The notes under the pieces were generated by a model. That model saw only the letters and a list, made by a program, of their open reading frames with translations, searched no databases and was not told where the DNA came from. From a virus, in IMG/VR virus record IMGVR_UViG_3300042566_000997, positions 1-51,020 of that record: DNA of 51,020 bases; one strand, written 5' to 3'. The position numbers and the translations under genes were made by a program. This document shows, piece by piece, positions 6,059-35,558 of this stretch (its first letter is position 1; every line of letters begins with the position of its first letter).

Positions 6059-6266
6059 ACTTGGTCTTCTTTTTCTTCTTGCCGATGGCATCTATCTCGC
6101 CCATGGCGCCCTCGATGTCCTTTGACATCAGAACGATCCTCTGGAGGTCCTTGGCGGTCTTCTTGCCCTCAACAATGGAGATGATTCCCTTGGACATCCA
6201 TGCTTCCATGTGTCCGTCCTGTCCCTGCCAGATGTTGTAGCCGAGGTAGTTGGTGATGTACTTCAT
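6018..6266 (-). CDS. hypothetical protein (82 aa)
   Basis: Begins MKYITNYLGYNIWQGQDGHM and ends in a Lys-rich tail (GKKKKKTKYDPHKDPNQ). The middle has an amphipathic helix (EGKKTAKDLQRIVLMSKDIEGAM). ATGA overlap with the primase gene (6263-6266) couples the two. Unknown role; the primase neighbourhood suggests replication. Confidence 0.65.
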   Translation of the reverse strand: MKYITNYLGYNIWQGQDGHMEAWMSKGIISIVEGKKTAKDLQRIVLMSKDIEGAMGEIDAIGKKKKKTKYDPHKDPNQTKIE

Positions 6267-10279: not shown

Positions 10280-10744
10280 TTAAAGGGTTCCGTTGCTCTT
10301 CGCTATGCGGATAGCCCTGAGCTCCTCCTTGGTGTAGTTGACCGGCACGATGTAGTCATCGCTCTCCTTCTCCACCAAGACCTTTGGGCGCGGCTTCTGC
10401 ATATGCTTGCGCGTCTCAGCTAACCGTGGGCACAGTTCGATACTGATGTCAATGCCGAGGTTCTTGCACGTCTGCTCATACACCGCCGATGTTGTCGGGT
10501 CGGTCTTCACCTTGTCGGGGTAGGTGCGGGCGTAGAAGGTAACCATGGAGTGGTCGCGCTTGATCCTATCTCCTGCCGCGCAAACGGGCCATAGCATGAT
10601 GCGCCGAAGGATGTAGCCAACGGTGCTGCGGGCGATGACGATGGGGTACAGTCGGCTCTTGCTGTAGAACACCTCCTCGCTGTATTCTATCCCGCAACTC
10701 AGGGCTGCGTCAGCCACGGCCCTGTAAACCGTTTCGTATGTCAT
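10280..10744 (-). CDS. DnaA-domain-IV-like DNA-binding protein
   Basis: 154 residues from ATG 10744, fixed by an ATGA overlap with the upstream stop; an ATG at 10756 would add four residues. Residues 28-75 read like the DnaA C-terminal (domain IV) helix-turn-helix: SKSRLYPIVIARSTVGYILR, then AAGDRIKRDHSMVTFYAR. The RDHS-x-V element (R63, D64, H65, S66, V68) corresponds to the DnaA signature helix whose D, H and T/S residues read the DnaA box TTATCCACA in E. coli. There is no AAA+ domain, so this is a DNA-recognition module only. The C-terminal part is basic and charged. It lies just upstream of the organiser and helicase genes, as expected for an origin binder. Confidence 0.65.
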   Translation of the reverse strand: MTYETVYRAVADAALSCGIEYSEEVFYSKSRLYPIVIARSTVGYILRRIMLWPVCAAGDRIKRDHSMVTFYARTYPDKVKTDPTTSAVYEQTCKNLGIDISIELCPRLAETRKHMQKPRPKVLVEKESDDYIVPVNYTKEELRAIRIAKSNGTL

Positions 10745-10890
10745 CCGTTTCTCCATTGCTTGAACGCTTCAGCGTAAGACCTCGTGTCTGTTGGGTTCCA
10801 CCCATCTGGGGTGGTCGTCTTGACCTTGATGGCTGGCTTGGGTATCCTCTCGCCAACCTTGATGCGTGTGAGTACTACTGCGTGTCTCAT
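10741..10890 (-). CDS. small basic protein (49 aa)
   Basis: ATG 10888-10890, TGA 10741-10743. Product begins MRHAVVLTRIKVGERIPKPA and ends SYAEAFKQWRNG. The stop overlaps the next start as ATGA, and the start overlaps the stop of the upstream gene, so it is embedded in the coupled series. No function recognised. Confidence 0.55.
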   Translation of the reverse strand: MRHAVVLTRIKVGERIPKPAIKVKTTTPDGWNPTDTRSYAEAFKQWRNG

Positions 10891-12109: not shown

Positions 12110-12334
12110 CTATCTGATCGTTATGGTTCCACTACTGGCATCGATGGCAGAACAGAATCCACGGATGACCAATCTGGGCTGGTCCTTGCGGTGGTGCGTC
12201 TCTGACGGAACAAGGCACCTCACGTCCTTGCATGGATGGCACTGGCCCTTGTAGTGGACCGTCATACCGCCAGTGGTTCGGCGGTAGTGGTAGAAGAAGC
12301 GGTGTTTCTTCATTCTAATCAGAACGCGTACCAT
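12110..12334 (-). CDS. small basic Cys-containing protein (74 aa)
   Basis: ATG 12334, one base after the stop of the SSB-like gene. Very basic start (MVRVLIRMKKHRFFYHYRRT), a CHPC knuckle followed by a nearby cysteine (CHPCKDVRC), then beta strands to the end (GTITIR). Possibly a zinc-binding nucleic-acid protein. Confidence 0.6.
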   Translation of the reverse strand: MVRVLIRMKKHRFFYHYRRTTGGMTVHYKGQCHPCKDVRCLVPSETHHRKDQPRLVIRGFCSAIDASSGTITIR

Positions 12335-13526: not shown

Positions 13527-13825
13527 CCGAACCGTGAGATGAGCGCCCCGTTGGAATCCCTGACGATGCACTGTTTGGAGCTCATCATGTATTCCCTACG
13601 TGCGAGGTCTGCTGCATCTGCGAGGCGAAAGAACGAGCGTGGGAGCGTGTTGGTTGCGCCATCGCTCTCGACAATGGTGACGTGGAAGGTCACCTGTTCG
13701 TCATCGGTAGGCTTTCTTGCCATTGTGTTGGGTTTATCCGACCAATCTACGAACTCATCTTCCATGTTGCGGAAGAGTTCCTCGTAGTGGTCGTTGTATG
13801 CGTTGCTGTTCTTCGTGTAGCCCAT
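13523..13825 (-). CDS. hypothetical protein (100 aa)
   Basis: ATG 13825 (MGYTKNSNAYNDHYEELFRN). Acidic N-terminal half with DEFVDWSDKPNTMARKPTDD, then a beta segment (QVTFHVTIVESDGA) and a helix (RLADAADLARREYMM). The leader (ccaaaaaagac) is A-rich. First gene left of the non-coding 13.85-14.27 kb segment. Confidence 0.65.
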   Translation of the reverse strand: MGYTKNSNAYNDHYEELFRNMEDEFVDWSDKPNTMARKPTDDEQVTFHVTIVESDGATNTLPRSFFRLADAADLARREYMMSSKQCIVRDSNGALISRFG

Positions 13826-18677: not shown

Positions 18678-19160
18678 TTACCAGCTTGAGTGATAGTAGT
18701 ACACTTCTTCTCCCTCGTCCAAGATGTCGTGAAGCGCATCGTATGTACGCTCAATCTCATCGAGGTAATATTGGTCGTAGTCTTGGCTGCCGAAGAAGCA
18801 CCCGCTTTGGGTAGGCAGAATGTCTTCAATGTCTTGGTCGTTGAGTATCTTCCCGTCCTCAACGATGGCCGTCTCAATCACTTCTTTGCACAGGGCCAAC
18901 AGGCTTTGAAGTTGGGATGTGTCCACGCGGTACTCCCCGCAGTCATCGTTCCCATCTTGCACGTTGTCAACGAACCACTTGTGTATGCAGTTGACCTTGC
19001 GCCATTCGATCACCTCTTCGATGACGTATGACACCCTCTTGGGGTCTATCCTCCGATACGGCTTGCCGTTCAGTGTGACACTTATTTGAACGTTGTCATC
19101 GCCCTTGTAGTCCCAGTGCTTGACGTAGGTGCGGCGGGTGAGGTACATATCGAGTCCCAT
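18678..19160 (-). CDS. MGLDMYL-type phage protein (160 aa)
   Basis: ATG 19160 gives MGLDMYLTRRTYVKHWDYKG. The MGLDMYL opening is characteristic of a widespread phage/bacterial protein family of unknown function, usually 130-200 residues with a central W and C-terminal acidic Tyr-rich end, as here (EEVYYYHSSW). The central W-R-K-x-N-x-I-H-x-W-F block (EWRKVNCIHKWFVDNVQDG) also fits. Leader is A/C-rich. Confidence 0.75.
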   Translation of the reverse strand: MGLDMYLTRRTYVKHWDYKGDDNVQISVTLNGKPYRRIDPKRVSYVIEEVIEWRKVNCIHKWFVDNVQDGNDDCGEYRVDTSQLQSLLALCKEVIETAIVEDGKILNDQDIEDILPTQSGCFFGSQDYDQYYLDEIERTYDALHDILDEGEEVYYYHSSW

Positions 19161-19173
19161 GGTCGTGTTGGTT

Positions 19174-19521
19174 TTAGATGGTTTTGTTACAGTTGGCACA
19201 GAATGCGTAGTCCTCCACTTGTTCATTGGTACAGGCAGCAACAGGTCGCCACCCGTTGTTGCTCTTGGTGCTCACTGCATAGGCGAGGTTGTAGAACTCC
19301 GACCGTGCACACTTGCTGCATAGGCATTCGGAGTCGTCCATCCACAGCACAAGGCTGTACCCACCGAATGCCTTGTCAGAGGCACGGATGACAGCTTTGA
19401 GGTCCGCCACGGTGCGTATCTTGTCTGTCCAATACGCCATGTTGCGGCGCACGGGCTTGTCGAAGTTGTTGCTGCGGTACAGGTGACCGTCAACTTCTGA
19501 TATCCAAAGTTCGTTGCTCAT
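19174..19521 (-). CDS. zinc-ribbon-like protein (115 aa)
   Basis: Two CxxC knuckles: CLCSKC in the middle (about residues 66-71) and CANCNK at the C-terminus. The first half is alpha/beta (LYRSNNFDKPVRRNMAYW). A zinc ribbon joining the two knuckles is likely. Function unknown. Confidence 0.65.
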   Translation of the reverse strand: MSNELWISEVDGHLYRSNNFDKPVRRNMAYWTDKIRTVADLKAVIRASDKAFGGYSLVLWMDDSECLCSKCARSEFYNLAYAVSTKSNNGWRPVAACTNEQVEDYAFCANCNKTI

Positions 19522-19541
19522 GGTGTTGTTGGTTTTACTTG

Positions 19542-19895
19542 TCAGTACAGTTCCTTTGCCATGCGCTGGAGTTCGTTGTGCAGTCGGAGGCGTTTCTGCG
19601 CTACCTCTTCTTCTTTTAGGCGGGCCTTCTCAAGGATGACAGCAGCCTCTCGGTGCGCTGCGTTAGTAATGCGCTGAGACTCGTCATTCGCGCTCTTACG
19701 CACCACCATCGCCCACTCTCTTGGTGAGTGTTCGGGGAAGACATCTGAGCGCAGGTCTCGCTCAATATCATATCTGATTGAGTTGAGCCACGGGCGGAGG
19801 TAGGTGTTCTCCGGAAGAGATGCGATGAACGCTTCAAACGCTGCGAGTTCTTCTTGCTTTGTCATGGGTTGCTGAGGTTTCTGAAGGTTAATCAT
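19542..19895 (-). CDS. hypothetical protein (117 aa) after first 19-bp motif
   Basis: ATG 19895 is chosen because the 19-bp motif copy at 19907-19925 ends the leader 11 bases before it; an ATG at 19865 is an alternative. N-terminal helical region (TKQEELAAFEAFIASLPENT), C-terminal long charged coiled coil (AAVILEKARLKEEEVAQKRL). Unknown function. Confidence 0.65.
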   Translation of the reverse strand: MINLQKPQQPMTKQEELAAFEAFIASLPENTYLRPWLNSIRYDIERDLRSDVFPEHSPREWAMVVRKSANDESQRITNAAHREAAVILEKARLKEEEVAQKRLRLHNELQRMAKELY

Positions 19896-19932
19896 GGTCT
19901 GTTTGCTTAGTTGATTATCCACTAACGGCTGG

Positions 19933-20133
19933 TTACAGATACAGGGAGCTACGCATGTCATCCTGAGCGTCACAGGCGGCGAGGAACAGTTCTTCTTCGT
20001 CCATGTTGGCGAGGTGTCGTCGGGTAATTACCCCGTCTTCACTTGCGATGGTGCGCAGTTCGCAGTTGTACGTGAAGTACAGGTCGAGCACTTCCTTGGC
20101 TTCTTTCGCGGTGGTGATTTCGCTGTTGATCAT
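19933..20133 (-). CDS. small hypothetical protein (66 aa)
   Basis: MINSEITTAKEAKEVLDLYF continues into a compact alpha-helical protein ending CDAQDDMRSSLYL. A 19-bp motif copy (20140-20158) lies 6 bases before the ATG. Unknown function. Confidence 0.6.
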   Translation of the reverse strand: MINSEITTAKEAKEVLDLYFTYNCELRTIASEDGVITRRHLANMDEEELFLAACDAQDDMRSSLYL

Positions 20134-20154
20134 GGGTCGTTAGTTGATTATCCA

Positions 20155-20394
20155 CTAAGCGTTTTGCTTGGGGTTGTGGTGGGTGAATGTGACCGTGCCT
20201 GAATCTTCATCTATCTCCACGGGCATTTTCCCGCTCAACAGGTCAGTGGCGCACTCTTTGGTGAGGCCGTAGCCATCTATGAACAGGTCGAGCATACGCT
20301 TGCGGTCGCTCTTGAACTTGTATCCTTGCTGTGCCCACCGAAGGATGCCGGGGGTATGCATAAGTGAGGTCGAGGTGAGGCGGATGGTTCTCAT
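20155..20394 (-). CDS. small basic protein (79 aa), start codon inside a palindrome
   Basis: MRTIRLTSTSLMHTPGILRW opens a basic alpha/beta protein ending GTVTFTHHNPKQNA. The start codon is part of CATCTTTAGATG (20392-20403), a 5-bp-arm palindrome, so the mRNA start could fold over itself. Its stop TAG is inside the 19-bp motif copy at 20140-20158. No family recognised. Confidence 0.6.
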   Translation of the reverse strand: MRTIRLTSTSLMHTPGILRWAQQGYKFKSDRKRMLDLFIDGYGLTKECATDLLSGKMPVEIDEDSGTVTFTHHNPKQNA

Positions 20395-20432
20395 CTTTAG
20401 ATGGTTTTGCTTAGTTGATTATCTACTAACGG

Positions 20433-21140
20433 TCAGTCCACCACGAATCCGGTGGTATCTTTCTTGGCTTTGCCCTTGGCATACAGGGCTACGACAACCC
20501 CTTGGGGGTCAAGGTGGCGGATGTCTGTGTCATCCCCATCCACTACGGGCATTCCCATGAAGGTGGTCGGTATCTTGTTCCGATGACGGAACACTACAGC
20601 AATGCGCATCCCATCGGCCATGGCTCTGTCAACAAAGGGCTTGTATTCAGGGACGCCGCTGTAGCTGAAGGTCAGGTCATAGTTGGATGGTACGGTACGG
20701 CCCACAATTTTCGTGTAGTCGTAGAACTGTACATATGGGAAGGCAGACATGATGTTCGGGTAGTGCATCCCATCCACATCCACAGGGATGGTTTCCCATC
20801 TGATGTCTGATGTCCCGTTAAGCCTGACAAGTGGGGTAGCCCCTGTCTTCTCAGCCTTGCGGATGGCACGGCGCACATCATCCACTACAGTGGACATGAA
20901 CGGCTTGCGTTCGGCATAGAACAGTTCGGTCTTTCGCTTCCGTGCAAGCTGGACGTTGCTGAAAGCACCACGGCCTGCTGTATTCAGACAGCCCTCATGG
21001 CACTTGGCTACGTCTGCCATAGGGCATACGTTCCCAACCCCTGCAAACTTCCAAGGAAGCATGTACAGGATGGCGGTGGTGAATCCTTTCTTCTGACCTT
21101 TGACGGTCTTTGCGTTGGTATCGATGCCGAGCAGTTTCAT
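20433..21140 (-). CDS. Gp88-like cysteine-cluster protein
   Basis: 235 residues. The N-terminal part reads MLPWKFAGVGNVCPMADVAK then CHEGCLNTAGRGAF, with C39, C47 and C51 arranged as in the mycobacteriophage 'gene product 88' family (CP-x(6-7)-C-x(3)-C-x(3)-AGRG). It is followed by basic helices (KRKTELFYAERKPFM) and an alpha/beta core (PLVRLNGTSDIRWETIP). The family role is unknown; the cysteine cluster suggests metal binding, and the core recalls radical-SAM-like barrels. The start codon lies in a second CATCTTTAGATG palindrome (21138-21149), with a 19-bp motif 15 bases further upstream. Confidence 0.7.
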   Translation of the reverse strand: MKLLGIDTNAKTVKGQKKGFTTAILYMLPWKFAGVGNVCPMADVAKCHEGCLNTAGRGAFSNVQLARKRKTELFYAERKPFMSTVVDDVRRAIRKAEKTGATPLVRLNGTSDIRWETIPVDVDGMHYPNIMSAFPYVQFYDYTKIVGRTVPSNYDLTFSYSGVPEYKPFVDRAMADGMRIAVVFRHRNKIPTTFMGMPVVDGDDTDIRHLDPQGVVVALYAKGKAKKDTTGFVVD

Positions 21141-21183
21141 CTTTAGATGGGGGTGTTAGTTGATTTTCCACTAAGCGAACTTC

Positions 21184-21438
21184 CTAAAGGAAGGCCACAC
21201 GGAAGCCGAACTCTCCACGGACGATGAACGACTCCACTCCATGCCTATCACAGACGTGGACAAGGGATCGCAATTCATCGAGATAGAGATCGTACCTTTC
21301 GGAGATCTCCACATAGCATGCCCCTACGATAGGGTATTCGTCTCCGCCGTCGCAGAGCATGTATCCCCTATGTCCATGCTTACGGATGAGTGTCTCACCA
21401 AACTGTGCTGCTGCATTGAAAGGCTTGCGTTGTTCCAT
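21184..21438 (-). CDS. hypothetical protein (84 aa)
   Basis: ATG 21438 (MEQRKPFNAAAQFGETLIRK). Alpha/beta protein with VGACYVEISERYDLYLDELR and a final beta strand FGFRVAFL. It has its own promoter box TATCTTTG at 21472-21479. The stop region overlaps the palindrome TTCCTAAAGGAA (21181-21192). Function unknown. Confidence 0.6.
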   Translation of the reverse strand: MEQRKPFNAAAQFGETLIRKHGHRGYMLCDGGDEYPIVGACYVEISERYDLYLDELRSLVHVCDRHGVESFIVRGEFGFRVAFL

Positions 21439-21471
21439 GTTAACGGTGGGTGTTTCTGTTTGACGGCGATG

Positions 21472-21479
21472 CAAAGATA
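21472..21479 (-). promoter_or_regulatory. -7 box TATCTTTG
   Basis: Leftward TAnnTTTG box 33 bases before ATG 21438. Confidence 0.45.
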
Positions 21480-21549
21480 CAACGCCAAAAGTTAACTTCC
21501 AAATTTATTTTTACAGTACGTAGTACTGGGGGGCTTAGTTGATTATCCA

Positions 21550-21825
21550 CTAACGGCATCCCTGATGGATTGCCGTACCCTTCAGATGGCGGGTCATTGC
21601 ACCGTCTGATCGGGATGTGCTGCTCATCCCAATGGACACTACGGATGTGTTCGTCTCCGCCCAGCGTCCACAGACAACGCACGTTCCCCTCCAAATTTGT
21701 CTGAACGTGGAGCCAAAGGGAGCCTTTGCGGCTACCCTGTCCCATCGTAGCATGTGGCCCCTAAGGGCTGCGGTTTCGTTCGCTTCGTCACGCAAGGTGC
21801 GCTTCTTTATAGTGTACTCGCTCAT
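21550..21825 (-). CDS. small Cys-knuckle protein (91 aa)
   Basis: MSEYTIKKRTLRDEANETAA is basic and helical; the middle has GTCVVCGRWAETNTS with one CxxC knuckle and the C-terminus has HQGC, which could complete a zinc site. Its stop codon TAG is part of the 19-bp motif at 21535-21553. The coding DNA carries short palindromes, e.g. GCCCCTAAGGGC at 21757-21768. Confidence 0.55.
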   Translation of the reverse strand: MSEYTIKKRTLRDEANETAALRGHMLRWDRVAAKAPFGSTFRQIWRGTCVVCGRWAETNTSVVSIGMSSTSRSDGAMTRHLKGTAIHQGCR

Positions 21826-22202
21826 AGTCGTAAGTGTTTGAGTGTCAGGCAGTTACAGATGTTGATGCATGCATCGCTCTAAAGAGCGGGGGTGGTGGTG
21901 CTTAGTTGATAATCTACTAAGCGACCTATCCCTAAAGGGATACTGTACGTAATTGGTGGTTCGTTGGCTCCATGCGCTACGCGCTTGTCCATGGGCCACA
22001 CCTTCAGTAAGCAAAGAACAATCGCACCCCTCCCTAATGGATAATCCACTAAGGATACACTACTACGTAGTGAGCAGTTAAGCCCTTCGCTGTTCGCTGA
22101 GGCCGCTACTACGTAGGTATGTGATGGGGCTGTAGGCTACCCTACAAACGGCTAAAGCCCGCCCCCCTAAGGGAGCGGGCCGTGAGCCGAAGGCCGTGAG
22201 TA
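21826..22202. other. non-coding segment dense in palindromes
   Basis: No gene seen. It holds two copies of the 19-bp motif and perfect palindromes GATGCATGCATC (21864-21875), CGCTCTAAAGAGCG (21875-21888), ATCCCTAAAGGGAT (21928-21941), and ACTACGTAGT (22062-22071). Further TACGTA-centred repeats lie near 21944 and 22110. The adjoining terminator hairpin is at 22157-22180. Confidence 0.7.
22157..22180 (-). terminator. hairpin after the 184-aa gene, probable terminator
   Basis: GCCCGC ... GCGGGC with an inner CCC-CTAA-GGG, followed leftward by TTTAG. Strong stem but short U-run, so termination may be partial. Confidence 0.5.
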
Positions 22203-22757
22203 TTACGCCGTGAGCACGGAACCTTTGGTTCGCATGTCGAGATTCGCAGCTTCTTTGCTACGATACTTCTCAACTTGCAAAGCAACGATCTCGAGTTCCT
22301 TCGCAGAAAGCTTCTTAAGAAGCTGTAGTGCGGTCTGTAGGTTAGACAACGCACTGGCCGCACCGGCTGCGGAAAGTTCACCGGACGTCGTTACTACTTT
22401 AGTAGTAGTGGCGTTAGTTGATTTTCCACTAACCGCCGTACCCCCTTTGGGGGTAGATTTTTTCTTCTTGCCCTTGTCCTTACGCTCACCCCGCTGGCTA
22501 TAGCCAGCTTCACGGAGGAGGTGGTTCAACAACCAATCGGCCTGAAGATACCCGCAGTCCCTAAGGGACTTCCCACATGTCTTCACGGCTTTGATGATTT
22601 CATCATCAGACGCACCGATCCCTTTCAGGGATGCAATCCCTTTGGTGATCACCGTAGTGGCTTTGGCGGTGAATTGAGCCTGTAGCTTGTCGCCGACCGT
22701 GCTCAGCTGGTCGTTCATGCTCTTGGTCACATCTGCTACGCTTGCTTGCTTGTTCAT
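22203..22757 (-). CDS. hypothetical protein (184 aa) with palindrome-studded coding DNA
   Basis: ATG 22757 (MNKQASVADVTKSMNDQLST). N-terminal helical half, GIGASDDEIIKAVKTCGKSL, a very basic centre (RGERKDKGKKKKSTPKGGTA), a Thr-rich stretch, and a C-terminal helix pair (LQTALQLLKKLSAKELEIVA). The basic middle suggests nucleic-acid binding. The coding DNA contains at least seven perfect palindromes, including the 16-mers AGCTTCTTAAGAAGCT (22309-22324) and GCTGGCTATAGCCAGC (22493-22508), and one copy of the 19-bp motif. It is the first gene of the leftward block and has a TATATTTG promoter. No family recognised. Confidence 0.65.
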   Translation of the reverse strand: MNKQASVADVTKSMNDQLSTVGDKLQAQFTAKATTVITKGIASLKGIGASDDEIIKAVKTCGKSLRDCGYLQADWLLNHLLREAGYSQRGERKDKGKKKKSTPKGGTAVSGKSTNATTTKVVTTSGELSAAGAASALSNLQTALQLLKKLSAKELEIVALQVEKYRSKEAANLDMRTKGSVLTA

Positions 22758-22795
22758 GGGAGAGGATTTTTGGCCGCCATTCGTTCGACGGTCTG

Positions 22796-22827
22796 CAAAT
22801 ATATGGGGCAAAAAATATTGGATGCAA
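22796..22827 (-). promoter_or_regulatory. promoter TTG-N21-TATATTTG
   Basis: Leftward TTG at 22825-22827 and TATATTTG at 22796-22803 with 21 bases between. About 38 bases upstream of ATG 22757; probably the main promoter entering the early block from the right. Confidence 0.55.
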
Positions 22828-22838
22828 GTTTTGTCTCA

Positions 22839-23131
22839 TGTTTTTATTATTTTCTTTTTAATGAAGTTAAAAAGAAATTAATAAAAAGGCGCGTGCAGCG
22901 AGAGCATGACAGGCACACATATGTATGCACGTGTGCGTGTAAGTTCGGCAGCTGGTTGTTGGATTGTCAAGTGAAAGTTATGAACACTTATAGTGTTCAA
23001 GAGATGTTATGAACACTGATTTTTTGACGAAAAAGCTGACAGAAACCTTGACGAAAAAGCTGACAAAGTGGGTCGGGGTCGCACTGCATGATGCGCTGGG
23101 CGCCTAAGGGTGCGCTCACATGCGCTTAGGC
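22839..23131. other. candidate replication origin or operator region
   Basis: An A/T-only-rich stretch (about 22839-22888) is followed by repeats: GTTATGAACACT at 22977-22988 and 23006-23017, the inverted repeat GAACACT-tat-AGTGTTC at 22982-22998, and TTGACGAAAAAGCTGACA at 23024-23041 and 23048-23065. Then come GC-rich inverted repeats GCCTAAG/CTTAGGC at 23102-23108 and 23125-23131. No gene found. An A/T-rich segment next to iterons is typical of origins; an operator cluster is the alternative. Confidence 0.45.
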
Positions 23132-23524
23132 ATGCGCTCGGGTCCCTTTTGTGCAGGCGCGTCTGCGCAGGCGAAACCAAACTTCAGTTGCAACAACCCC
23201 GGGGGTATATTTCGCATAATAGGTCCCCAACCTACCGATTGTTCCGTTCCACGGATTTTGGGCCACGGGGGGATATATAGGGTAACCCCCGAACGTCCAA
23301 AATGATTCCCCGGCTTCTCCTAGCCTCATCAGGCTATTCCCACCGTGGCCCTGTCAAACAAACCACCACAAATGCTTGACACCCCATAGGGTCCCCTATT
23401 CTTGCCACCACAAGCTCGTTCTAAGCGACTTTCTCTGTCTGTGTGGTGGTATGGGTAGTTAAGGGTGGAGATAGTGTCTTAAATCGAAGAAAAATAGGTA
23501 TGGGGGTTGAAATGTAGGTATACA
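23132..23524. other. non-coding stretch, weak signals only
   Basis: No credible gene. It contains short C/G runs (near 23198, 23266 and 23284), the palindrome ATAGGG-tc-CCCTAT at 23386-23399, and repeated accaccaca-type trinucleotides. Nothing can be assigned. Confidence 0.5.
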
Positions 23525-23532
23525 TATATTTG
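23525..23532 (+). promoter_or_regulatory. -7 box TATATTTG
   Basis: Rightward TAnnTTTG box 4 bases before ATG 23537. A TTG occurs upstream at 23507-23509 with a short 15-base spacer. Confidence 0.6.
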
Positions 23533-23536
23533 TACC

Positions 23537-23767
23537 ATGAATAACAGGTTGACACGCAGGAGGGAGTCGCTGTACTCCGCGGAAGAGCTTGCCAAGGAGC
23601 TTGGGGTGAGCAAAGAAGACGTTGAGGGGCTTGAGGCTAGCTTCCTTTCAAGGATTCAGAAAGACTACCTGAAGCTGCTCAATTACGAGATAGGATTCTA
23701 CCCCCACAGGAAGAAGAGGCAGAAGAAGATCGCCAACGGGGAAGTGGTAATTGATGGACGGTGTTGA
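23537..23767 (+). CDS. small HTH-like protein (76 aa), possible regulator
   Basis: ATG 23537 (MNNRLTRRRESLYSAEELAK). Residues 14-36, SAEELAKELGVSKEDVEGLE, look like a helix-turn-helix (hydrophobic spacing and the G-V-S turn). The C-terminal part is very basic (YPHRKKRQKKIANGE). It lies alone on the rightward strand between the origin-like repeats and the tandem repeats, with its own promoter and probably a leaderless mRNA, a typical place for a phage regulator. Regulation itself is inferred. Confidence 0.6.
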   Translation: MNNRLTRRRESLYSAEELAKELGVSKEDVEGLEASFLSRIQKDYLKLLNYEIGFYPHRKKRQKKIANGEVVIDGRC

Positions 23768-23912
23768 AAACTTTTGTTCGCGGCTCTTCAAATGTTATTT
23801 CATCTCTCTTATAGTATAGTATATATATACTAAGTAAGTATATACTAGGTAGGTATTTATTAAGTAGGTATAATCTTCTAGTGGTGGAAACTTTTTGAGT
23901 GGAACCCTCTAC

Positions 23913-24190
23913 ATCCCGCGTGGCTCTAAGAAAGTAGGATGTTGCTTGATTTTGCTTTTGGAATGTGCAAACGGCTGCAAGCCCCGTGGCTCTAGTAAGG
24001 TAGGCGTTTTTGGAAGAGCAAAAAAAGCAAACCAAAAGCAAAACGAAAGCAAAGTCTTTCTTCGTGGCATAAAAGAAGGGTAATCTTGCGGTTTTGCTTT
24101 TGAAATGTGCAAACGGCTGTAGCCCGCGTGGCTCTAGCAAGGTACGTGTTTTTGGAAAAGCAAAAAAAGCAAAACGAAAGCAAAATAAAG
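23913..24190. repeat. imperfect tandem repeats, about 2.5 copies of a 100-140 bp unit
   Basis: Unit: ttttgcttttgRaatgtgcaaacggctg... then cgtggctcta..aaggta, gtttttgga, and a run of 'agcaaa' elements. Full copies start at 23950 and 24092; a partial copy with CCCGCGTGGCTCTA lies at about 23918. The 'agcaaaa' tail is expanded in copy 2. Frames through it encode repetitive Phe/Leu/Arg-rich text, so I regard it as non-coding. Function unknown. Confidence 0.75.
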
Positions 24191-24229
24191 CAAAATAAAG
24201 CAAACGCGTTTTACTAAGGGCATTAACAT

Positions 24230-24255
24230 AAAAAAGGGGTGGTATTACCCACCCC
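24230..24255 (-). terminator. intrinsic terminator of the 85-aa gene
   Basis: Leftward GGGGTGG, 6-base loop, CCACCCC (24255-24236), then TTTTTT (24235-24230). Ends transcription of the coiled-coil gene. Confidence 0.8.
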
Positions 24256-24279
24256 AATTCTATTTGTATGGAGAGTAAC

Positions 24280-24537
24280 TTACCCCTTAACAATCTCCGT
24301 TGACTGGGATAGTTCACTCAGCTTACGGAAGATGGTGGCGAAGTCTGAGTCGTTCTCGCTGGACTGTTCTTTGAGTTCTTGGATGGACTGCTCAACCTTG
24401 GCCATACGAGCCTCTAGCTGGTCCATGAATCCTACTAGCTTCTCTACGCTTTCTGCAAGTGGCTGGACGTAGTTTTCAATGTATGACTCGGCGGTGGTCA
24501 CCCGGTCGTTCATCTCGATGAGCTTGTCTTCTGTCAT
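24280..24537 (-). CDS. short coiled-coil protein (85 aa)
   Basis: MTEDKLIEMNDRVTTAESYI through VGFMDQLEARMAKVEQSIQE is a continuous heptad coiled coil; a second, shorter one follows (FATIFRKLSELSQSTEIVKG). It has its own promoter box TATCTTTG (24553-24560) and terminator, so it is a single-gene unit divergent from the late genes. Function unknown. Confidence 0.7.
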   Translation of the reverse strand: MTEDKLIEMNDRVTTAESYIENYVQPLAESVEKLVGFMDQLEARMAKVEQSIQELKEQSSENDSDFATIFRKLSELSQSTEIVKG

Positions 24538-24552
24538 TGCGTGTTGTTTTCA

Positions 24553-24560
24553 CAAAGATA
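24553..24560 (-). promoter_or_regulatory. -7 box TATCTTTG
   Basis: Leftward box 15 bases before ATG 24537, in the divergent gap to the late genes. Confidence 0.5.
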
Positions 24561-24601
24561 CAAGGAAATTAGAAGTAAAACTTTTTGAGAATGGTGTGCG
24601 A

Positions 24602-24784
24602 ATGAGCGAATATCGCATAGCTTTACCCACTGAGGGTCAGAGGATTAGTGACGTAGGAGAGCTACGGACGGGTTTTGCTTGTACCTCAGTAAACACCTTT
24701 GACTTCTCTTCCATTGTGGAAGACACGACTATATTTGTATCCTTTGAGGCACAGGGCTCTTGGTGGCTATACTGCAACAACTGA
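24602..24784 (+). CDS. small protein upstream of tail fibre (60 aa)
   Basis: ATG 24602 (MSEYRIALPTEGQRISDVGE), a beta-rich protein ending FVSFEAQGSWWLYCNN. It ends 3 bases before the fibre gene start and is the first late gene; probably a minor virion or fibre-associated protein. No motif known. Confidence 0.6.
   Translation: MSEYRIALPTEGQRISDVGELRTGFACTSVNTFDFSSIVEDTTIFVSFEAQGSWWLYCNN
24730..24737 (+). promoter_or_regulatory. -7 box TATATTTG upstream of tail fibre gene
   Basis: Rightward TAnnTTTG box inside the small upstream gene, 50 bases before ATG 24788. Confidence 0.4.
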
Positions 24785-24787
24785 CCA

Positions 24788-26422
24788 ATGGACGTATACG
24801 TCGAAAGCGACAAGGTTAGAATAGTCAGCGCGGGTAACATCGTTACCGTGGCTGGCGCTGACATCCGTCGCGTATGGCAGGAGTTCCAGCCGAACGTCAA
24901 CTTCAATGGTGGGCTTTACACGGTGTACGTCACCGACACCAACGCCAACACCTTCCCCATCCCCCTTGACAGCGTCACCAACCAAAGGTTCTGGACCAAT
25001 AACTTCCAAGGGGCTGTGGAGGCGGTCAAGGACATCTCTGCCATCGCAGGGGTTCTCCCATTTGGTGGCATAACAGCACTTACCGGTGACGTTACCGCCG
25101 GTCCCGGCACGGGGACTCAGCCCGCCACGCTGGCCAACACGTCCGTTACCCCGGGGAGCTACACGAACACCAACATCACCGTTGACTCCAAGGGCAGGGT
25201 AACCGCAGCGGCCAATGGAACGGGTGGAGGGGTTGTGTCTGTCACCGCCACGGCTCCTATTGCGGCAACAAGCGGTGCAAACCCGGTCATTACCCACTTC
25301 AACTCTGGTGTAAGCCCGGGTGTATACACAAATGCAAACATTACCGTTGATGTCAAGGGTCATGTTACGCTGGCATCCAATGGAACGGCATCGTCTGGTG
25401 ACGTTGTTGGCCCAGCATCGGCAACAGACAACGCCATAACTAGGTACAACCTCACCACGGGCAAGCTGATCCAGAACAGTACAGTTCTGCTGGACGACAA
25501 CGGCAAGCTGGGTCAGGTTGACGCGATAGATTTCAATACCACCCCGGTCACGGCAATAGCTGCAAAGAGGTTGCAGTGGAGTGACGCAGAGGGTTCCTTG
25601 CAGCTTGGGCTAAAGGGCGGGAACGTCCACTCGCACATTAGCGAGGATCTGTTCTTGTACGGCTACAACAACAGCGGTAGCCCGATGACCAAGGGGCAGG
25701 TGGTGAGGATCAACGGGTCAAGTGGCGTCCGTCCGGTTGTGTCGCTGGCGCAGGCGGACTCAGACCCCAACAGCGCAGAGACGGTGGGCGTGGTGGCCGA
25801 GACAATTGCTAACAACTCTCAGGGGCTTATTCAGGTGCTTGGCATTATGACCAACCTGAACACCAACTCATTCAATGAGGGAGATGTGCTATACCTGTCC
25901 CCGACCGTGGCAGGTCAGTTGGTGAACACAAAGCCAGTGGCCCCCGACCACTTGGTCCGCGTGGCCTATTGTGTAAAGAAGTCAGGGGGAGCCGGTGAGA
26001 TCTACATCTCTCCCCTCAACGGGTTTGAGCTGAATGAGCTGCATGACGTACTCATCACCACCCCAGCGACCAACACCTGTGGCCTGTACTGGAACACTGG
26101 GACCAGCGTGTGGGAGAACCTGACGCCAGCCAATGCCAGAACAGCCCTTGACGTAAGCAAGAAGATACTACAGGTTGGCTCCCTGACGCTTACCACCGCA
26201 GGGTGGTCGCTTGTCGGCGGACTATACGAGCAGGACTTGGCAGAGGCCAACATCACAGCCACTTCCATTGTGGATGTTATTCCAGACAACGCTGATATAG
26301 CTACTGTCATCGCCGCTGGAATCCTGCCGAGGACGGACAGCGCAGCAGGCAGCGTCAAGGTGTACTCCCAGAACCTGCCAACCGCCAACATTGGCGTGAC
26401 CATTAACATCAGCAACCTATGA
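24788..26422 (+). CDS. tail fibre protein
   Basis: 544 residues. After a mixed N-terminal part (about 1-90), two related repeats occur: [20 protein letters not shown] ... [20 protein letters not shown] and [20 protein letters not shown]. These '[21 protein letters not shown]' repeats are typical of phage tail fibres and spikes. A region with [20 protein letters not shown] resembles the intramolecular fibre shaft, and the rest is beta-rich. It is followed at once by the Gly-rich adhesin, overlapping at 26419-26422. Likely the fibre shaft or baseplate-side fibre. Confidence 0.8.
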
Positions 26423-27372
26423 GCGTAGGCTCTTTTGCGGTCCCACTTATTGGCTCCCCCGCTAACACGCTGCGTGAGTATACAGCTAGCGACACTTGGA
26501 ACAAGCCAACCAACAATAAATTCGTCGGTGCGTTCGTCGTGTGCGTGGGTGCTGGCGCTGGCGGTGCGTGTGGTGACCTTCGCACAGGGATAACGGTGCC
26601 TGCGACGGGCGGGGCAGGAGGCGGTGGCGGATGGGTGGTATGGGACTTTATTACTGCCGCGTCGCTGGGCGGCACAGAGGCTGTGACGGTGCCTGCCGGA
26701 GGGGCAGGGCAGGCAGGGCGTAACACTGTTGGAGCAGGTATCGCAGGAGCCAACGGAGGCGATGCATCGTTTGGCGCACACGTTGTCGCATTAGGTGGAC
26801 GAGGAGGCAATGGCACTGAAGTTGGACGTGACATAACAGGCTGCACGCCACGCAAAGGGTCGAACATCCTGCCCGGACATCCGTCGATGCGTATTGGCAA
26901 CATTAGTAATACCGGGGGCTTCTACTGGCCTACAAGTGGCGTGCCTTCATATGCCGCAAGCGGAAGCCGCGCTCTTGGTGGCGCACCCGGAGGCAACGGA
27001 GGAAGGCGTGACGCACCAAGCGGCACGGCTGGTCCGGGTATCGCTGGCGGTGGCGTGTGGAACGGCACCACTCTGACAGGTGGTGGGGCCTTGGGTACGG
27101 CTACCAACAATGGGGGCAACGGCACAGGCAACATCGTGCTGACGCTACTATCGTCGCATGGCCTGACAACAACCAATGGCGCGGGCGGTGGCGGCGGTGG
27201 CGGTGGTGGAGGGAGTGCAGTCGCTGTGGCTGGCAACGGCGGTAATGGTGCTATCTCCGCAGGAGGCGGTGGAGGAGGCGGTGGAACGGATACCGTCGGC
27301 GATGGCATAAGCGGCGATGGCGGCAACGGCGGTGCGGGCATAGTGTACGTTTACGAGATTTACAAAATCTAA
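26419..27372 (+). CDS. glycine-rich receptor-binding fibre protein
   Basis: 317 residues. The N-terminal 60 residues ([20 protein letters not shown], then [20 protein letters not shown]) form a beta domain whose last strand ends in GAGAGG. The rest is rich in Gly runs, e.g. GGAGGGGGW and a run of ten Gly near residue 253, separated by short variable loops. This is the pattern of polyglycine-II adhesins such as Salmonella phage S16 gp38, where the loops between glycine runs contact the receptor. ATGA overlap with the fibre gene suggests the adhesin caps it. Length is similar to S16 gp38 (about 260). Confidence 0.75.
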
Positions 27373-27376
27373 AGGC

Positions 27377-27601
27377 ATGGCACGATACGCAATAATCAAA
27401 TCGGGATACGTCCTCAACGTGGTGGAGTGGGATCCGGTGGCGGCTCCAGACTGGACCTATCCGTTCACACATGATTCGGTCGTGCTGGATGCCAACGGCA
27501 ACGCGGGCATCGGCGACTGGTATGAGACTGCGGAAGACATCTTCTATCGACCCATCAATGCACAGCCGCCCGACTGGCCGGACGAATTAAAATCCGAATA
27601 A
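27377..27601 (+). CDS. small fibre-associated protein (74 aa)
   Basis: MARYAIIKSGYVLNVVEWDP is the typical start of short proteins encoded right after phage fibre genes (MARYAII..G.V.NVVEWD), with GIGDWYE further on. It may be a fibre assembly or tip protein. Confidence 0.65.
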   Translation: MARYAIIKSGYVLNVVEWDPVAAPDWTYPFTHDSVVLDANGNAGIGDWYETAEDIFYRPINAQPPDWPDELKSE

Positions 27602-27604
27602 CCA

Positions 27605-27928
27605 ATGGCAGACCAAGTAAACCTCCGCAAGGAACACAAGAACCCAAAAGGTGGTCTATCCGCCGCCGGTCGGGCCAAGTACAACAAGGAGACGGGAAGC
27701 AACCTCAAGGCACCCGTCAAGGGCGCACCTTCGTCCCCCGAGCAGATGAAGCGCAAGGGTTCATTCTTGGTAAGGATGGGCTCCGCCGCTGGCCCCCTGA
27801 TGAAGGATGGCAAGAAGACGCGACTGAAGCTATCTTTGGAGGCGTGGGGCCACAGCGGGGACAAAGCCTCGGCAGTTGCCAAGGGCCGCAGGATGCTTGC
27901 ACGATACAAGGGTAAAAACAAAGACTGA
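27605..27928 (+). CDS. small basic protein (107 aa), DUF6321-like
   Basis: MADQVNLRKEHKNPKGGLSA, then GRAKYNKETGSNLKAPV, SFLVRMGSAAGPL and AWGHSGDKASAVAKGRRML. The NPKGGLSAAGRAKYNKETGSNLKAPV block and the G-x-A-x-A-x-A-x-G end are recurring features of small, highly basic phage proteins placed near structural genes, which I recall as DUF6321. Basic composition suggests DNA or capsid association. Confidence 0.65.
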   Translation: MADQVNLRKEHKNPKGGLSAAGRAKYNKETGSNLKAPVKGAPSSPEQMKRKGSFLVRMGSAAGPLMKDGKKTRLKLSLEAWGHSGDKASAVAKGRRMLARYKGKNKD

Positions 27929-27930
27929 CC

Positions 27931-28245
27931 ATGCCTACTGAAAAGCAAAACCGAAACAAGCTCAACATACTGATTGAGCAGACCTACAAACACGCCAAGA
28001 AGCACAGCTTGGAGGTGTTCTCCATGTACTCCGGCGACGACGGGGAGCAGATCAAGATGTCGGGTAACTACAGCGTCAATATGGTACGCAACGTGGTCTA
28101 CCACATGCTGGTGAACCACCCCGAAGAGTTCGCGTCGGTAATCGAGACCGTCAACGAGCTCACCAAGCAGAGCGAAGGCGTCACAGAAGAGGTTAAGAAG
28201 GAAGTTGAGGAGGTCGAGGAGCCCAAGGGCATGACCGTGGCCTAA
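27931..28245 (+). CDS. hypothetical protein (104 aa)
   Basis: Starts MPTEKQNRNKLNILIEQTYK and ends with an acidic helix (VTEEVKKEVEEVEEPKGMTV). Helical, soluble. Its end overlaps the leftward gene at 28242. Unknown. Confidence 0.6.
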   Translation: MPTEKQNRNKLNILIEQTYKHAKKHSLEVFSMYSGDDGEQIKMSGNYSVNMVRNVVYHMLVNHPEEFASVIETVNELTKQSEGVTEEVKKEVEEVEEPKGMTVA

Positions 28246-28502
28246 ACCCTCCCGTCTGCTATGTTTATGGCCCTCCGCGTATCATTAACGCGGCGCTTGA
28301 GGTCTTCAAGCAGTGACATCATGTCGTCGATGCGTCGGTTGACGTGCATCCCGTACTTGCTCTCTGCTTCAATCTCAAACCGCGTTATTGCCTTGTCTAT
28401 CTCGACAAGTGCAGAGACAATATCACTCGTGGTGATGTTGCTCCTGTCAATCTTCTCCCTTGCCGATGCGGGGGTCCTGAAGTCTGGGAATACTTGTTTC
28501 AT
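28242..28502 (-). CDS. coiled-coil protein (86 aa) on the opposite strand
   Basis: MKQVFPDFRTPASAREKIDR opens a helical protein (DIVSALVEIDKAITRFEIEA; DDMMSLLEDLKRRVNDTRRA). It runs against the late genes, with a TAGATTTG box 4 bases before ATG 28502. Convergent 4-base overlap with the 104-aa gene. Function unknown. Confidence 0.6.
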   Translation of the reverse strand: MKQVFPDFRTPASAREKIDRSNITTSDIVSALVEIDKAITRFEIEAESKYGMHVNRRIDDMMSLLEDLKRRVNDTRRAINIADGRV

Positions 28503-28506
28503 CCCA

Positions 28507-28514
28507 CAAATCTA
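28507..28514 (-). promoter_or_regulatory. -7 box TAGATTTG
   Basis: Leftward TAnnTTTG box 4 bases before ATG 28502; directly abuts the start of the divergent 91-aa gene. Confidence 0.5.
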
Positions 28515-28790
28515 ATGTCCTATCCATGCACCGGATGTGGGGCCTGTTGCCGAAGGGTTCACATGATACCACAGTGGCCATTGGAACTCCTAAAGGAGGA
28601 CGGGTCGTGCGTAAACCTACTGGATGACAACTCCTGCGCCATCTATGAGGAGAGGCCGATTATATGCAGGGTGGACGAAATGATGGAACTTATGGGGGCG
28701 GACAAGGACTTCTGGTATAAGACAAATGCAGACTACTGCAACACTTGGATGGACGAGGATGGCGTGGAAGGGAAGAGGGTAGAGCTATAA
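28515..28790 (+). CDS. YkgJ-type CxxCGxCC cluster protein
   Basis: 91 residues. It opens MSYPCTGCGACCRRVHMIPQ with C5, C8, C11 and C12 (CxxCGACC), followed by C32, SCAIYEERPIICRV with C41 and C51, and C75. The order CxxCGxCC ... C..L....SC.IY..RP..CR is that of the YkgJ / UPF0153 family, thought to bind zinc or an Fe-S cluster. In cells it has no settled role; in a phage it could modify a virion or host protein. It starts exactly at the divergent promoter of the leftward gene. Confidence 0.8.
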   Translation: MSYPCTGCGACCRRVHMIPQWPLELLKEDGSCVNLLDDNSCAIYEERPIICRVDEMMELMGADKDFWYKTNADYCNTWMDEDGVEGKRVEL

Positions 28791-28798
28791 CGCAAGAA

Positions 28799-28814
28799 GC
28801 CCCCTTCCGGGGGC
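28799..28814. terminator. bidirectional terminator between convergent genes
   Basis: GCCCCC-TTCC-GGGGGC hairpin 9 bases after the stop of the rightward gene (28790) and 26 bases after the leftward stop at 28840. T-rich on the leftward side (TTCTTG). Confidence 0.6.
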
Positions 28815-28839
28815 CTCTGCATATATAGAAGGGAATGAA

Positions 28840-29319
28840 TTAGGGAGGGGTGATGTTGCTGCCATCAACGTCGAGCAGCAGATAAGCATCACCTGCGCCA
28901 AGGGCGGTCGCGATGGTGGTGATACCAGCGGCAGATGCGGCAGCGTCTTCCATCTTGAACTTCGTGTACAGCACACCGGTGGGGCTGTAGAAGCCGATGT
29001 AAGAACCGCCACGACCCAGCGGGAACAGGATGCTACCGGTAGGTCCAACGGGGATAATTTCTTCTCCGTCGTCGTAATCAGCGGTCAGTTGACCTTCCAC
29101 AGGCTCGGTTTTGCCGAACAGGTCGGTGTCCGTGGGGGCTCCGCCGTTGGAGTTAGGGCTGTCTCCAAAGTAAGGGCCGGTGTAGCTGTAGTCGCCACTG
29201 CCAGCGTAGGTGGGGTAGGTGATCAGCTTGCTGAACGGACCTACGGTGGCCAGAATTTGCGGGGTAACGAACGCAGTGTTCACCACTTCGCCACTGGCGG
29301 TTTGGAACTGAATAATCAT
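28840..29319 (-). CDS. hypothetical protein (159 aa), virion-like, opposite strand
   Basis: ATG 29319 (MIIQFQTASGEVVNTAFVTP). A beta-rich, Gly/Thr/Tyr-rich protein (YAGSGDYSYTGPYFGDSP; GSILFPLGRGGSYIGFYSP) with a helical Ala-rich end and a final strand (DAYLLLDVDGSNITPP). Composition resembles decoration or fibre proteins. It is transcribed leftward from its own TATATTTG promoter (29341-29348), against the late genes. No family recognised. Confidence 0.6.
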   Translation of the reverse strand: MIIQFQTASGEVVNTAFVTPQILATVGPFSKLITYPTYAGSGDYSYTGPYFGDSPNSNGGAPTDTDLFGKTEPVEGQLTADYDDGEEIIPVGPTGSILFPLGRGGSYIGFYSPTGVLYTKFKMEDAAASAAGITTIATALGAGDAYLLLDVDGSNITPP

Positions 29320-29340
29320 AGTTCTTTGGGTTTGGTGGTA

Positions 29341-29348
29341 CAAATATA
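29341..29348 (-). promoter_or_regulatory. -7 box TATATTTG
   Basis: Leftward box 21 bases before ATG 29319. Confidence 0.5.
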
Positions 29349-29409
29349 CTGATAATCAGCAGGTTATGAAAGCAGTGCTAAATTTTTTTACTCACACACG
29401 ACACCAATC

Positions 29410-29417
29410 TATATTTG
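29410..29417 (+). promoter_or_regulatory. -7 box TATATTTG
   Basis: Rightward box 4 bases before ATG 29422. Confidence 0.55.
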
Positions 29418-29421
29418 TGGC

Positions 29422-29613
29422 ATGAAAAACAAGGCTATCAAGGGCATGATCCTATCGCGTATTGACAAGCTCAATACCCAATGGAGCGAGGTGGTTGACA
29501 CCGAAGAAAGGACAACCCCCATGGACTACATGAGGGTTGCTGAGATTCAAGGGGCTATCAACGCCCTGATGGCGCTGATGGTGGAGATTGACTCTATTAA
29601 GGCATCCGAATAG
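29422..29613 (+). CDS. small helical protein (63 aa)
   Basis: MKNKAIKGMILSRIDKLNTQ, then a second helix GAINALMALMVEIDSIKASE. Own promoter with a leaderless layout. Overlaps the leftward 155-aa gene by 17 bases. Unknown function. Confidence 0.6.
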   Translation: MKNKAIKGMILSRIDKLNTQWSEVVDTEERTTPMDYMRVAEIQGAINALMALMVEIDSIKASE

Positions 29614-30064
29614 CCCCGCGAATTGCGACAATGCAGGCGGAGGCTCCGGCACTATCGTTAGTCCAAGTCGCTTGATTGGCAACCTTGCCCATTGGGATGT
29701 CCATAAACCGCTGGTCATTCAAACGCAGTCGAACAAACCACTGCTGATACCTTGCGGTGCTTTCGGCTATTTGAGTATCACCAGTTGGCCCAAACCCGCT
29801 CGGGAATGTTGATGCGGGGTCAGGCCAATTGTCTTGCAGCATGGTTGCATCGTTTGCAACATCCCTCCAAGGGTTGGGGACGCTGGTTGGGAGCCAAGCG
29901 GCGTCTCCGTCCGCAAGCCCGTACACCCTCACTTGCTTTACTTGGGCCGTAACGTCCACAACCGTATACAGGTTGATGAGGTATTCGGTTTCGGTGGTGG
30001 TGGCATTGATAAACTCAATGTCTCCATTGCCCACGTTTACATTAAAGCGATACGGTGCTGGCAT
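29597..30064 (-). CDS. virion-like protein (155 aa), opposite strand
   Basis: MPAPYRFNVNVGNGDIEFIN is beta-rich, with further strands (EYLINLYTVVDVTAQVKQVR), a Trp/Pro-rich middle and a C-terminal GASACIVAIRGAIRMP. Beta-rich virion-like composition as in the gene at 28840-29319, but no convincing sequence match between them. A TACATTTG box lies about 90 bases upstream (30154-30161). Function unknown. Confidence 0.55.
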   Translation of the reverse strand: MPAPYRFNVNVGNGDIEFINATTTETEYLINLYTVVDVTAQVKQVRVYGLADGDAAWLPTSVPNPWRDVANDATMLQDNWPDPASTFPSGFGPTGDTQIAESTARYQQWFVRLRLNDQRFMDIPMGKVANQATWTNDSAGASACIVAIRGAIRMP

Positions 30065-30194
30065 CTTTGTAATAGATTACAATCAGTCCATCGCACTGTT
30101 CAAGTTCAATAAGAGCGAACCCGTCACAGCAGACGTCCATGTTGTCCATGCAACAAATGTAACACCGAATTGCTGATACTCAATACTTTGTATC

Positions 30195-30202
30195 TATTTT
30201 TG
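30195..30202 (+). promoter_or_regulatory. -7 box TATTTTTG before the terminase gene
   Basis: Rightward TAnnTTTG box ending 4 bases before the GTG at 30207. Confidence 0.5.
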
Positions 30203-30206
30203 TGAG

Positions 30207-35514: not shown

Positions 35515-35545
35515 GCGCTGAAAAACAAAAACTACAAACACAACA

Positions 35546-35553
35546 TATCTTTG
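35546..35553 (+). promoter_or_regulatory. -7 box TATCTTTG before the scaffold gene
   Basis: Rightward box 5 bases before ATG 35559. Confidence 0.55.
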
Positions 35554-35558
35554 CAAGC

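Follow-up and report, generated by a model that had tools for sequence, protein, structure and literature searches.

In phages of Microbacterium cluster EG an 18-bp inverted repeat is found 8-10 times, in short gaps between genes and usually 14-22 bp ahead of the start of a leftward gene; the repeats are kept although the genes of the region differ, and the available part of the report gives their role as not known (PMC7302621). Cluster O mycobacteriophages have 17-bp inverted repeats with 7-bp invariant arms and a 3-bp variable centre, many of them intergenic, which their authors suggest to be sites for dimeric regulatory proteins, the role being likewise not known according to the accessible text (PMC4351075). 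The stoperators of cluster A are oriented with transcription, and their motif varies between phages along with the repressor (PMC6550527). In cluster K, start-associated sequences are linked to gene starts, mostly in one orientation, and are associated with inverted repeats that vary in consensus from one cluster K phage to another (PMC3203893). Here we describe an array of 19-bp near-palindromes among the leftward early genes in a stretch of 51,020 nucleotides of viral DNA (positions 1 to 51,020 of IMG/VR record IMGVR_UViG_3300042566_000997, hereafter the window), together with palindromes found in related phages. Repeated regulatory elements at variable early-gene borders also occur in T4-type phages, as PeSL (promoter and stem-loop) cassettes; these carry a promoter, whereas the window copies mostly stand without an evident one.

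The 19-mer TTAGTTGATTATCCACTAA is found on the plus strand with zero to two mismatches at seven positions, starting at 19907, 20140, 20411, 21156, 21535, 21902 and 22414. At up to three mismatches the window contains 13 strand-matches, compared with a mean of 0.02 in 100 dinucleotide shuffles, a count in which a near-palindrome often scores on both strands. One further copy (22034-22052) is diverged, with four mismatches on the plus strand by hand count and three on the minus strand; since it fits the other strand better, the array is described as seven copies and one diverged. The first-pass annotation had reported eight copies in one orientation over 2.5 kb, which holds for the seven co-oriented copies (19907-22432) and not for the eighth. 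On the mRNA (minus) strand the repeat reads TTAGTGGATAATCAACTAA, with the layout TTAGT(G/A)GA-(TAA/TTA/AAA)-TCAACTAA, that is, near-fixed arms around a variable centre with a constant mismatch at positions 6/14. Columns 6, 9 and 10 are the sole variable columns among the seven good copies, whose cores are TTATCCACT in three cases and TTATCTACT, TTTTCCACT (twice) and TAATCTACT in the remaining four. The pattern TTAGTN{6,11}ACTAA matches seven times, always inside the array, in a 71.6-kb IMG/VR contig (G001; L010, L012, L021, L055) whose identity to the window is 99.97-100% wherever the two were compared, so that all good copies of this contig are confined to a 2.5-kb early segment. The reversed pattern, used as a control, gave no match in this contig and one or two in three of the 14 other records searched.

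The array occupies seven consecutive leftward (minus-strand) genes (19542-22757), and each of their six gaps contains at least one copy. The good copies all read on the minus strand. Copy 1 (19907-19925) lies 11 nt upstream of gene 19542-19895, or about 41 nt if a later possible ATG of that gene is used. Copy 2 (20140-20158) lies 6 nt upstream of gene 19933-20133, copy 3 (20411-20429; TTAGTAGATAATCAACTAA) 16 nt upstream of gene 20155-20394, and copy 4 (21156-21174; TTAGTGGAAAATCAACTAA) 15 nt upstream of a GP88-family gene. Larger distances to the next chosen start are seen for copy 5 (21535-21553; 96 nt upstream of gene 21184-21438 and ahead of a possible promoter), copy 6 (21902-21920; TTAGTAGATTATCAACTAA; 76 nt upstream of gene 21550-21825) and the diverged copy 7 (22034-22052; 208 nt), for which the best consensus match is on the minus strand. 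Copy 8 (22414-22432) lies within the first gene, in frame, where it reads V-S-G-K-S-T-N; its centre is AAA, a variant found also in a gap (21156), and the majority version at this place would create an in-frame TAA. Gaps make up 19.5% of 19542-22757 and hold seven of the eight copy centres (binomial 7e-5, a guide only, as the copies are related by descent). It had been proposed that most copies sit between genes and supply stop codons; the position is borne out, while stop codons come from only two of the eight copies, at 20140 (for gene 20155-20394) and at 21535 (for gene 21550-21825).

Different versions of the site were found in related phages. Those of G006 and G002 (L022) are 18 bp long, TTAGTGA-(ATAA/CTAA/ATAG)-TCACTAA with one outer base changed, and are present in four copies in the early region of G006, where they stand at early-gene borders, and in three copies in that of G002. 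All seven are co-oriented with transcription as judged by the asymmetric four-base centre, although copies within one phage are not independent. The G006 palindromes differ from those of the window in the core; a single substitution and a single inserted base separate the 18-bp from the 19-bp version. The G010 palindrome, CTTATTTCA-N3-TGAAATAAG, is unrelated in sequence; it occurs in five places at 0-2 mismatches and in a sixth with a one-base-shorter centre. Four of these six sites are at borders of listed open reading frames (ORFs), a fifth (72194) is directly before an ATG, and two are within 4 nt of an ATG; the sixth is at 70055. In G011, a scan of 40 kb for recurring 6-bp arms found no repeated palindrome, and a search for near-perfect palindromes in 6.7 kb of early region gave a single unrelated 20-mer only, neither covering the last 9 kb. 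No palindromes were found in G009. The counts do not include a 21-nt loose-pattern match at 14052 of the G006 contig, which lies away from the early array; with the pattern reversed as a control, G006 also gave two matches.

A scan of viral contigs with the 19-mer pattern TTAGTKGATWATCMACTAA returned five contigs, with more than one site only in the window's own phage; the four others look like chance, since they have one site each. The 18-bp pattern TTAGTGANTANTCACTAA returned 31 contigs, and beyond G002 and G006 at least ten have tight arrays of a similar palindrome. Among the loci compared, these contigs have GP88 and a small number of further proteins in common with the window phage or G006, and no evident regulator; we therefore treat them as possibly convergent. 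The arrays of TTAGTGAGTACTCACTAA-like palindromes (L073, L074, L075, L076, L078, L081, L082, L095, L099, L100) comprise 3-7 palindromes per contig at up to two mismatches. They adjoin a gene that we read as putative small-terminase-like in L074 and L099, and a GP88 gene is near them in L076 and L099. In L086, two TTAGTGA-N4-TCACTAA sites (12118-12135 and 13533-13550) are each followed by a sigma-70-like TTGACA...TAATAT/TATAAT, and one of them is ahead of a GP88 gene.

In arrangement the array is closest to the EG repeats, being likewise an inverted repeat present in several copies in the short gaps of one gene stretch; the arrangement described for the EG and O clusters is seen here with a 19-bp near-palindrome in seven plus one copies over six gaps. 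The likeness is one of arrangement only, as the window repeat has the sequence of neither the EG nor the O repeats. The EG sequence is GATCAACCNNGGTTGATC, the host group is another, and, according to the available part of the report, the repeat is identical in all three EG phages, whereas the relatives of the window phage have differing versions. The cluster O repeats are closest in symmetry; they differ in having 34 copies across the Corndog genome, about one third of them in genes, with little evidence of orientation with transcription in the accessible text. Orientation and version changes are most similar to those of the cluster A stoperators: all seven good window copies and all seven copies of G006 and G002 share the orientation, the diverged copy fitting the other strand. 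Stoperators differ in being 13-bp asymmetric sites of a known repressor in temperate phages, with 20-30 per genome (PMC6550527). The cluster K elements differ in combining a 13-bp asymmetric core, 3-7 bp from the start, with 17-bp inverted repeats that have a variable spacer.

The contig L022 of G002 provides a natural recombinant. Over 12,284 bp of late DNA (window 23387-35670, L022:3181-15464) its identity to the window is 100%, and it diverges upstream of 23387, where the early region is largely replaced and contains the three 18-bp sites. Judging from the two sequences, the identical late DNA beside a replaced early region reflects recent recombination between phages. Gene content near the sites differs strongly among the phages, and in two of three comparisons a shared gene stands behind the resident version. 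Gene 19933-20133 (96% nucleotide identity between the window and L022 over 203 bp) has a 19-mer 6 nt before it in the window and an 18-mer upstream in L022, where a mini-tRNA-like element lies between. Gene 19542-19895 (77% amino acid identity) is behind a 19-mer in the window and behind the 18-bp version in G006. On either side of gene 19933-20133, homology with L022 breaks off no more than 6 nt from the sites, and L022 has no site at the 3' border of this gene.

From the number, orientation and border position of the copies, the fixed arms and variable centre, the versions in relatives and the same gene behind different versions, all read directly from the sequences, we infer binding by a protein, its dimeric state, an effect on transcription and a possible identity of the reader. 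We lean, without great confidence, towards the repeats being double-stranded DNA operators at which a DNA-binding protein of the phage, probably a dimer, regulates the leftward early genes. Such a phage-specific regulator would bind the sites at early-gene borders, and the near-fixed arms with a variable centre in the window, G006/G002 and G010 suggest a dimer contacting two half-sites. It would probably act on passing or initiating RNA polymerase, for example as a polar roadblock like the mycobacteriophage stoperators, because the copies are positioned at borders, half of them are at most 16 nt from a start, and the seven good copies are co-oriented. The bound sites may set the timing or level of expression of the small early genes. 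Each phage would use its own site version, and shared genes would thus stand behind the resident one. The seven co-oriented copies, the six consecutive filled gaps and the in-gene copy that avoids a stop are consistent with operators. The earlier suggestion that the copies regulate the genes just downstream seems reasonable as far as adjacent genes are concerned.

A weak candidate for the reader is the product of the first gene of the leftward stretch, the leader gene (22203-22757, minus strand; 184 amino acids, predicted with low confidence to be helical, with a basic linker). Sites flank this gene in G006 and G010, and in the window one site lies within it. The window and G006 leaders, from phages with related sites, could be aligned by hhalign over 59 columns with 29% identity (P 0.012), and they have a similar predicted helix order in low-confidence models. 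A scan for relatives of the G006 leader gave 74 pattern matches, of which two were confirmed, G006 itself and G002.

Several observations weigh against a dedicated regulator or against this candidate. Four of the eight copies are at least 76 nt from the next start or within a gene, and the G002 homologue of gene 19542-19895 (44% amino acid identity) follows gene 19933 with no site directly before it. Only three site versions were found, in about four phages, and one protein might read both the 18- and the 19-bp forms, since they differ so little. Uniform copies could also stem from recent duplication, and on RNA pairing the near-invariance of the arms is barely informative in either direction. 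The proteins scanned, a part of all ORFs, included no recognisable repressor or integrase. The hhalign probability for the two leaders is only 3.5% despite the P value, their models have a mean pLDDT (predicted local distance difference test) of 58 and 52 and are too uncertain to use, searches of Pfam, PHROG and folds gave no credible match for the leader protein, and the G010 leader shows no alignment or relation to that of the window. A rival reader, itself a weak candidate, is a 75-amino-acid protein at the start of the rightward genes (23540-23767) with weak helix-turn-helix matches below cut-off. Four relatives have it at 49-63% identity; in L022 the protein is identical though the sites differ, and G009 retains it although the search there found no palindromes.

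Among the other explanations, it is rather unlikely that the repeats act as RNA, in the form of hairpins or leader elements for translation start or mRNA processing. Start codons follow four window copies at 6-16 nt and several G006/G002 copies at 19-24 nt, and in six of seven copies the 18-bp version has a 4-nt loop closed by a perfect 7-bp stem. Against this, the 6-14 pair is mismatched in all seven window copies, the single arm change in the 18-bp set (the outer base) breaks a pair, the loop is the variable part, and no compensatory changes were seen in the arms of the 18- and 19-bp sets, which comprise few sequences; other copies are inside a gene or 76-208 nt away from a start. Mini-tRNA-like elements located near the sites in relatives do look like real RNA structures: all eight, inspected by hand, keep seven acceptor pairs despite changes on both sides of the stem (e.g. 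AAGGTGG/CCACCTT and AAGGGCG/CGCCCTT). Because these stems co-vary and the palindrome arms do not, we favour the palindromes being read as DNA, few as the sequences are. The alternative offered by the first-pass annotation, that the copies are recombination linkers, taken here as short border homologies for early-gene shuffling with no reader protein, would agree with the strong differences in gene content around the sites and with the end of gene 19933 homology within 6 nt of them. It is weakened by the recombinant, as the versions before gene 19933-20133 differ and L022 has no site at the 3' border, so that recombination between shared sites does not account for the exchange; the uniform polarity and the stop-avoiding in-frame copy also suggest a read signal. 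We regard linkers as improbable as the full explanation, and the two roles are not exclusive. Very improbable, in our judgement, are promoters of a phage RNA polymerase, for example hairpin promoters of a virion polymerase. The copies are oriented with transcription upstream of early genes, and phages that carry a virion polymerase may be distant kin, as a crAss-type muzzle-like protein (Pfam E 7.5e-14) suggests. Yet open stretches of 150 codons or more in G001, G006 and G010 lack the motif D-[FYILVWAC]-D-[GA]-D, and the 2132- and 1010-amino-acid proteins are without a polymerase match; a PF00940 search gave no matches and was uninformative, its control also giving none.

Least probable of all, and close to discounted, is the reading put forward by the first-pass annotation, in which the repeats serve as binding sites for a stand-alone DnaA-domain-IV-like protein or for host DnaA, whether for replication initiation, gene regulation or DnaA titration. 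The description of the protein itself holds. Encoded at 10280-10756 on the minus strand (158 amino acids; R43, P57, R67-D68-H69-S70), it is a remote homologue of DnaA domain IV by sequence comparison: Pfam Bac_DnaA_C scores 19.1-20.2 bits, below the cut-off of 31.5, for the window protein and 29.3, also below, for that of G006, and rises above it in G010 (45.3) and G011 (41.6), while a profile of the four proteins matches DnaA in the PDB (3pvp, E 2.5e-7). The G006 and G010 proteins are 45% and 31% identical to that of the window. RDHS is present in all three and replaced by NHST in G011. Of the base-contact residues, R43, P57, D68 and H69 are kept and S70 stands for T, as had been stated for D, H and S; R43, D68 and H69 we take to be box contacts by analogy with E. 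coli DnaA. The G010 protein (L059:1705-2646) seems by eye to consist of two tandem domain copies, the first without RDHS. A scan for relatives of the G006 protein returned G006 itself only.

The link of this protein to the array is what fails. The core had been described as one base from the DnaA box; three of the seven good copies do carry TTATCCACT, which matches the box at eight of nine positions, and the other four do not. TTATTCACT is present in three of the four G006 copies, and single box-like cores occur outside palindromes, for example one TTATCCAC in G010 and two in the scanned 40 kb of G011. However, TTATNCACA is found in none of the seven copies, and all three variable positions of the repeat fall inside the DnaA-like 9-mer. 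Box-like 9-mers with at most one mismatch are not enriched in the window (12 against 9.4 expected; 21 of 100 shuffles reach 12). Nor does the palindrome follow the protein in related phages (G006, G010, G011): G010 retains the RDHS domain with palindromes, TTATTTCA-N3-TGAAATAA, that are unlike the box, and G011 has the domain (NHST) with no repeated palindrome in the parts searched. The protein is thus probably not the reader of the array. A more natural candidate for a replication origin, as far as sequence pattern can tell, is a set of GCAAA iterons with 10-11 bp spacing, found in both the window and G006 once in an organiser-like gene and twice in a divergent intergenic region (in the window at 10041-10079, 24023-24053 and 24157-24204). 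The pattern was not found in G010, G011 and G009, and G007 has one unlike run.

The mini-tRNA-like elements (a 7-bp acceptor stem and a T-arm, 43-66 nt) are located in the early regions of G006 (three), G002 (three) and G009 (two), at L051:3253-3315, 3817-3859 and 4219-4264, L068:3801-3862, 4369-4411 and 5004-5047, and L067:18030-18095 and 18696-18741; shuffle means are 1.1, 0.1 and 0.2 for the three phages. In G006 and G002 they adjoin palindromes. Single six-pair matches in G007, G011 and G014 and one in G010 look like chance. One element matches Rfam mascRNA at 31.6 bits, below the threshold of 42.5. They are possible RNase P/Z cutting signals. No such element was found in the window, where Rfam gave nothing above a gathering score.

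The genome is probably circular and about 71.4 kb, since the end of the 71.6-kb contig overlaps its start by about 145 bases. The muzzle-like protein (1603 amino acids, 42023-46834) resembles that of crAss viruses. The replication genes include a DnaB-like helicase alongside a primase-like gene (6263-7303; Pfam DUF6371, Zn_ribbon_16) and the DnaA-IV-like gene. Between the last and the DnaB gene lies gene 9755-10270 (minus strand), replisome-organiser-like by position only, which contains the 11-bp iterons at 10041-10079. The leftward genes downstream of the leader encode proteins of 91 (21550-21825) and 84 (21184-21438) amino acids, the GP88-family protein (20433-21140; PF17338, E 1.7e-41; copies on both sides), and proteins of 79 (20155-20394), 66 (19933-20133) and 117 (19542-19895) amino acids. 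The 91- and 79-amino-acid proteins have no Pfam match over cut-off and the 84-amino-acid protein has no Pfam match. The possible Bacteroidota-type promoter (21472-21503, minus strand), TTTG-N20-TATCTTTG, of the TTTG/TAnnTTTG consensus, is a single occurrence in the window against 0.5 expected by chance. With this one match, a Bacteroidota host is likely; a genome scan with the 792-amino-acid late protein gave 11 pattern matches, none confirmed. Compared with annotated phage records, window 19000-24000 had one 69-bp match, to a Puniceispirillum phage (two records). Within 21826-22757 there are 11 short perfect palindromes of differing sequence in 0.93 kb (1.4 expected, maximum 4 over 40 shuffles); the leader regions of relatives have 2.9-3.8 per kb, partly the sites themselves. 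Upstream of the leader gene, a 19-bp near-palindrome TGAACACTTATAGTGTTCA (22981-22999), with further TGAACACT nearby, is a possible operator of another regulator.

The observation of the array is solid, and it is the reader protein that was misassigned. Arrays of inverted repeats at early-gene borders are already described in several actinobacterial phage clusters, their reader not being known, and the window shows such an arrangement in a phage with a crAss-type muzzle-like protein. In the literature covered, as titles and abstract openings, we found no account of crAss-type phages with palindromic intergenic repeats or of phage DnaA-domain-IV proteins, nor, at similarly partial coverage, of mini-tRNA-like elements of this kind. 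For the DnaA-like protein, which merits study, the GCAAA iterons and not this array are the place to start. The recombinant with identical late genes and another site version makes a clean pair for finding the reader, a candidate being any protein or region that changes with the version. We speculate, and hold it unlikely though worth stating, that the palindromes are phage-specific address tags: the early-gene cassettes of a phage would be bordered by a palindrome version peculiar to it, which only that phage's regulator reads. If so, incoming genes would come under the resident version, and, as the tags abut mini-tRNA-like elements in relatives, the early genes would be set apart by transcription control acting jointly with RNA cutting.

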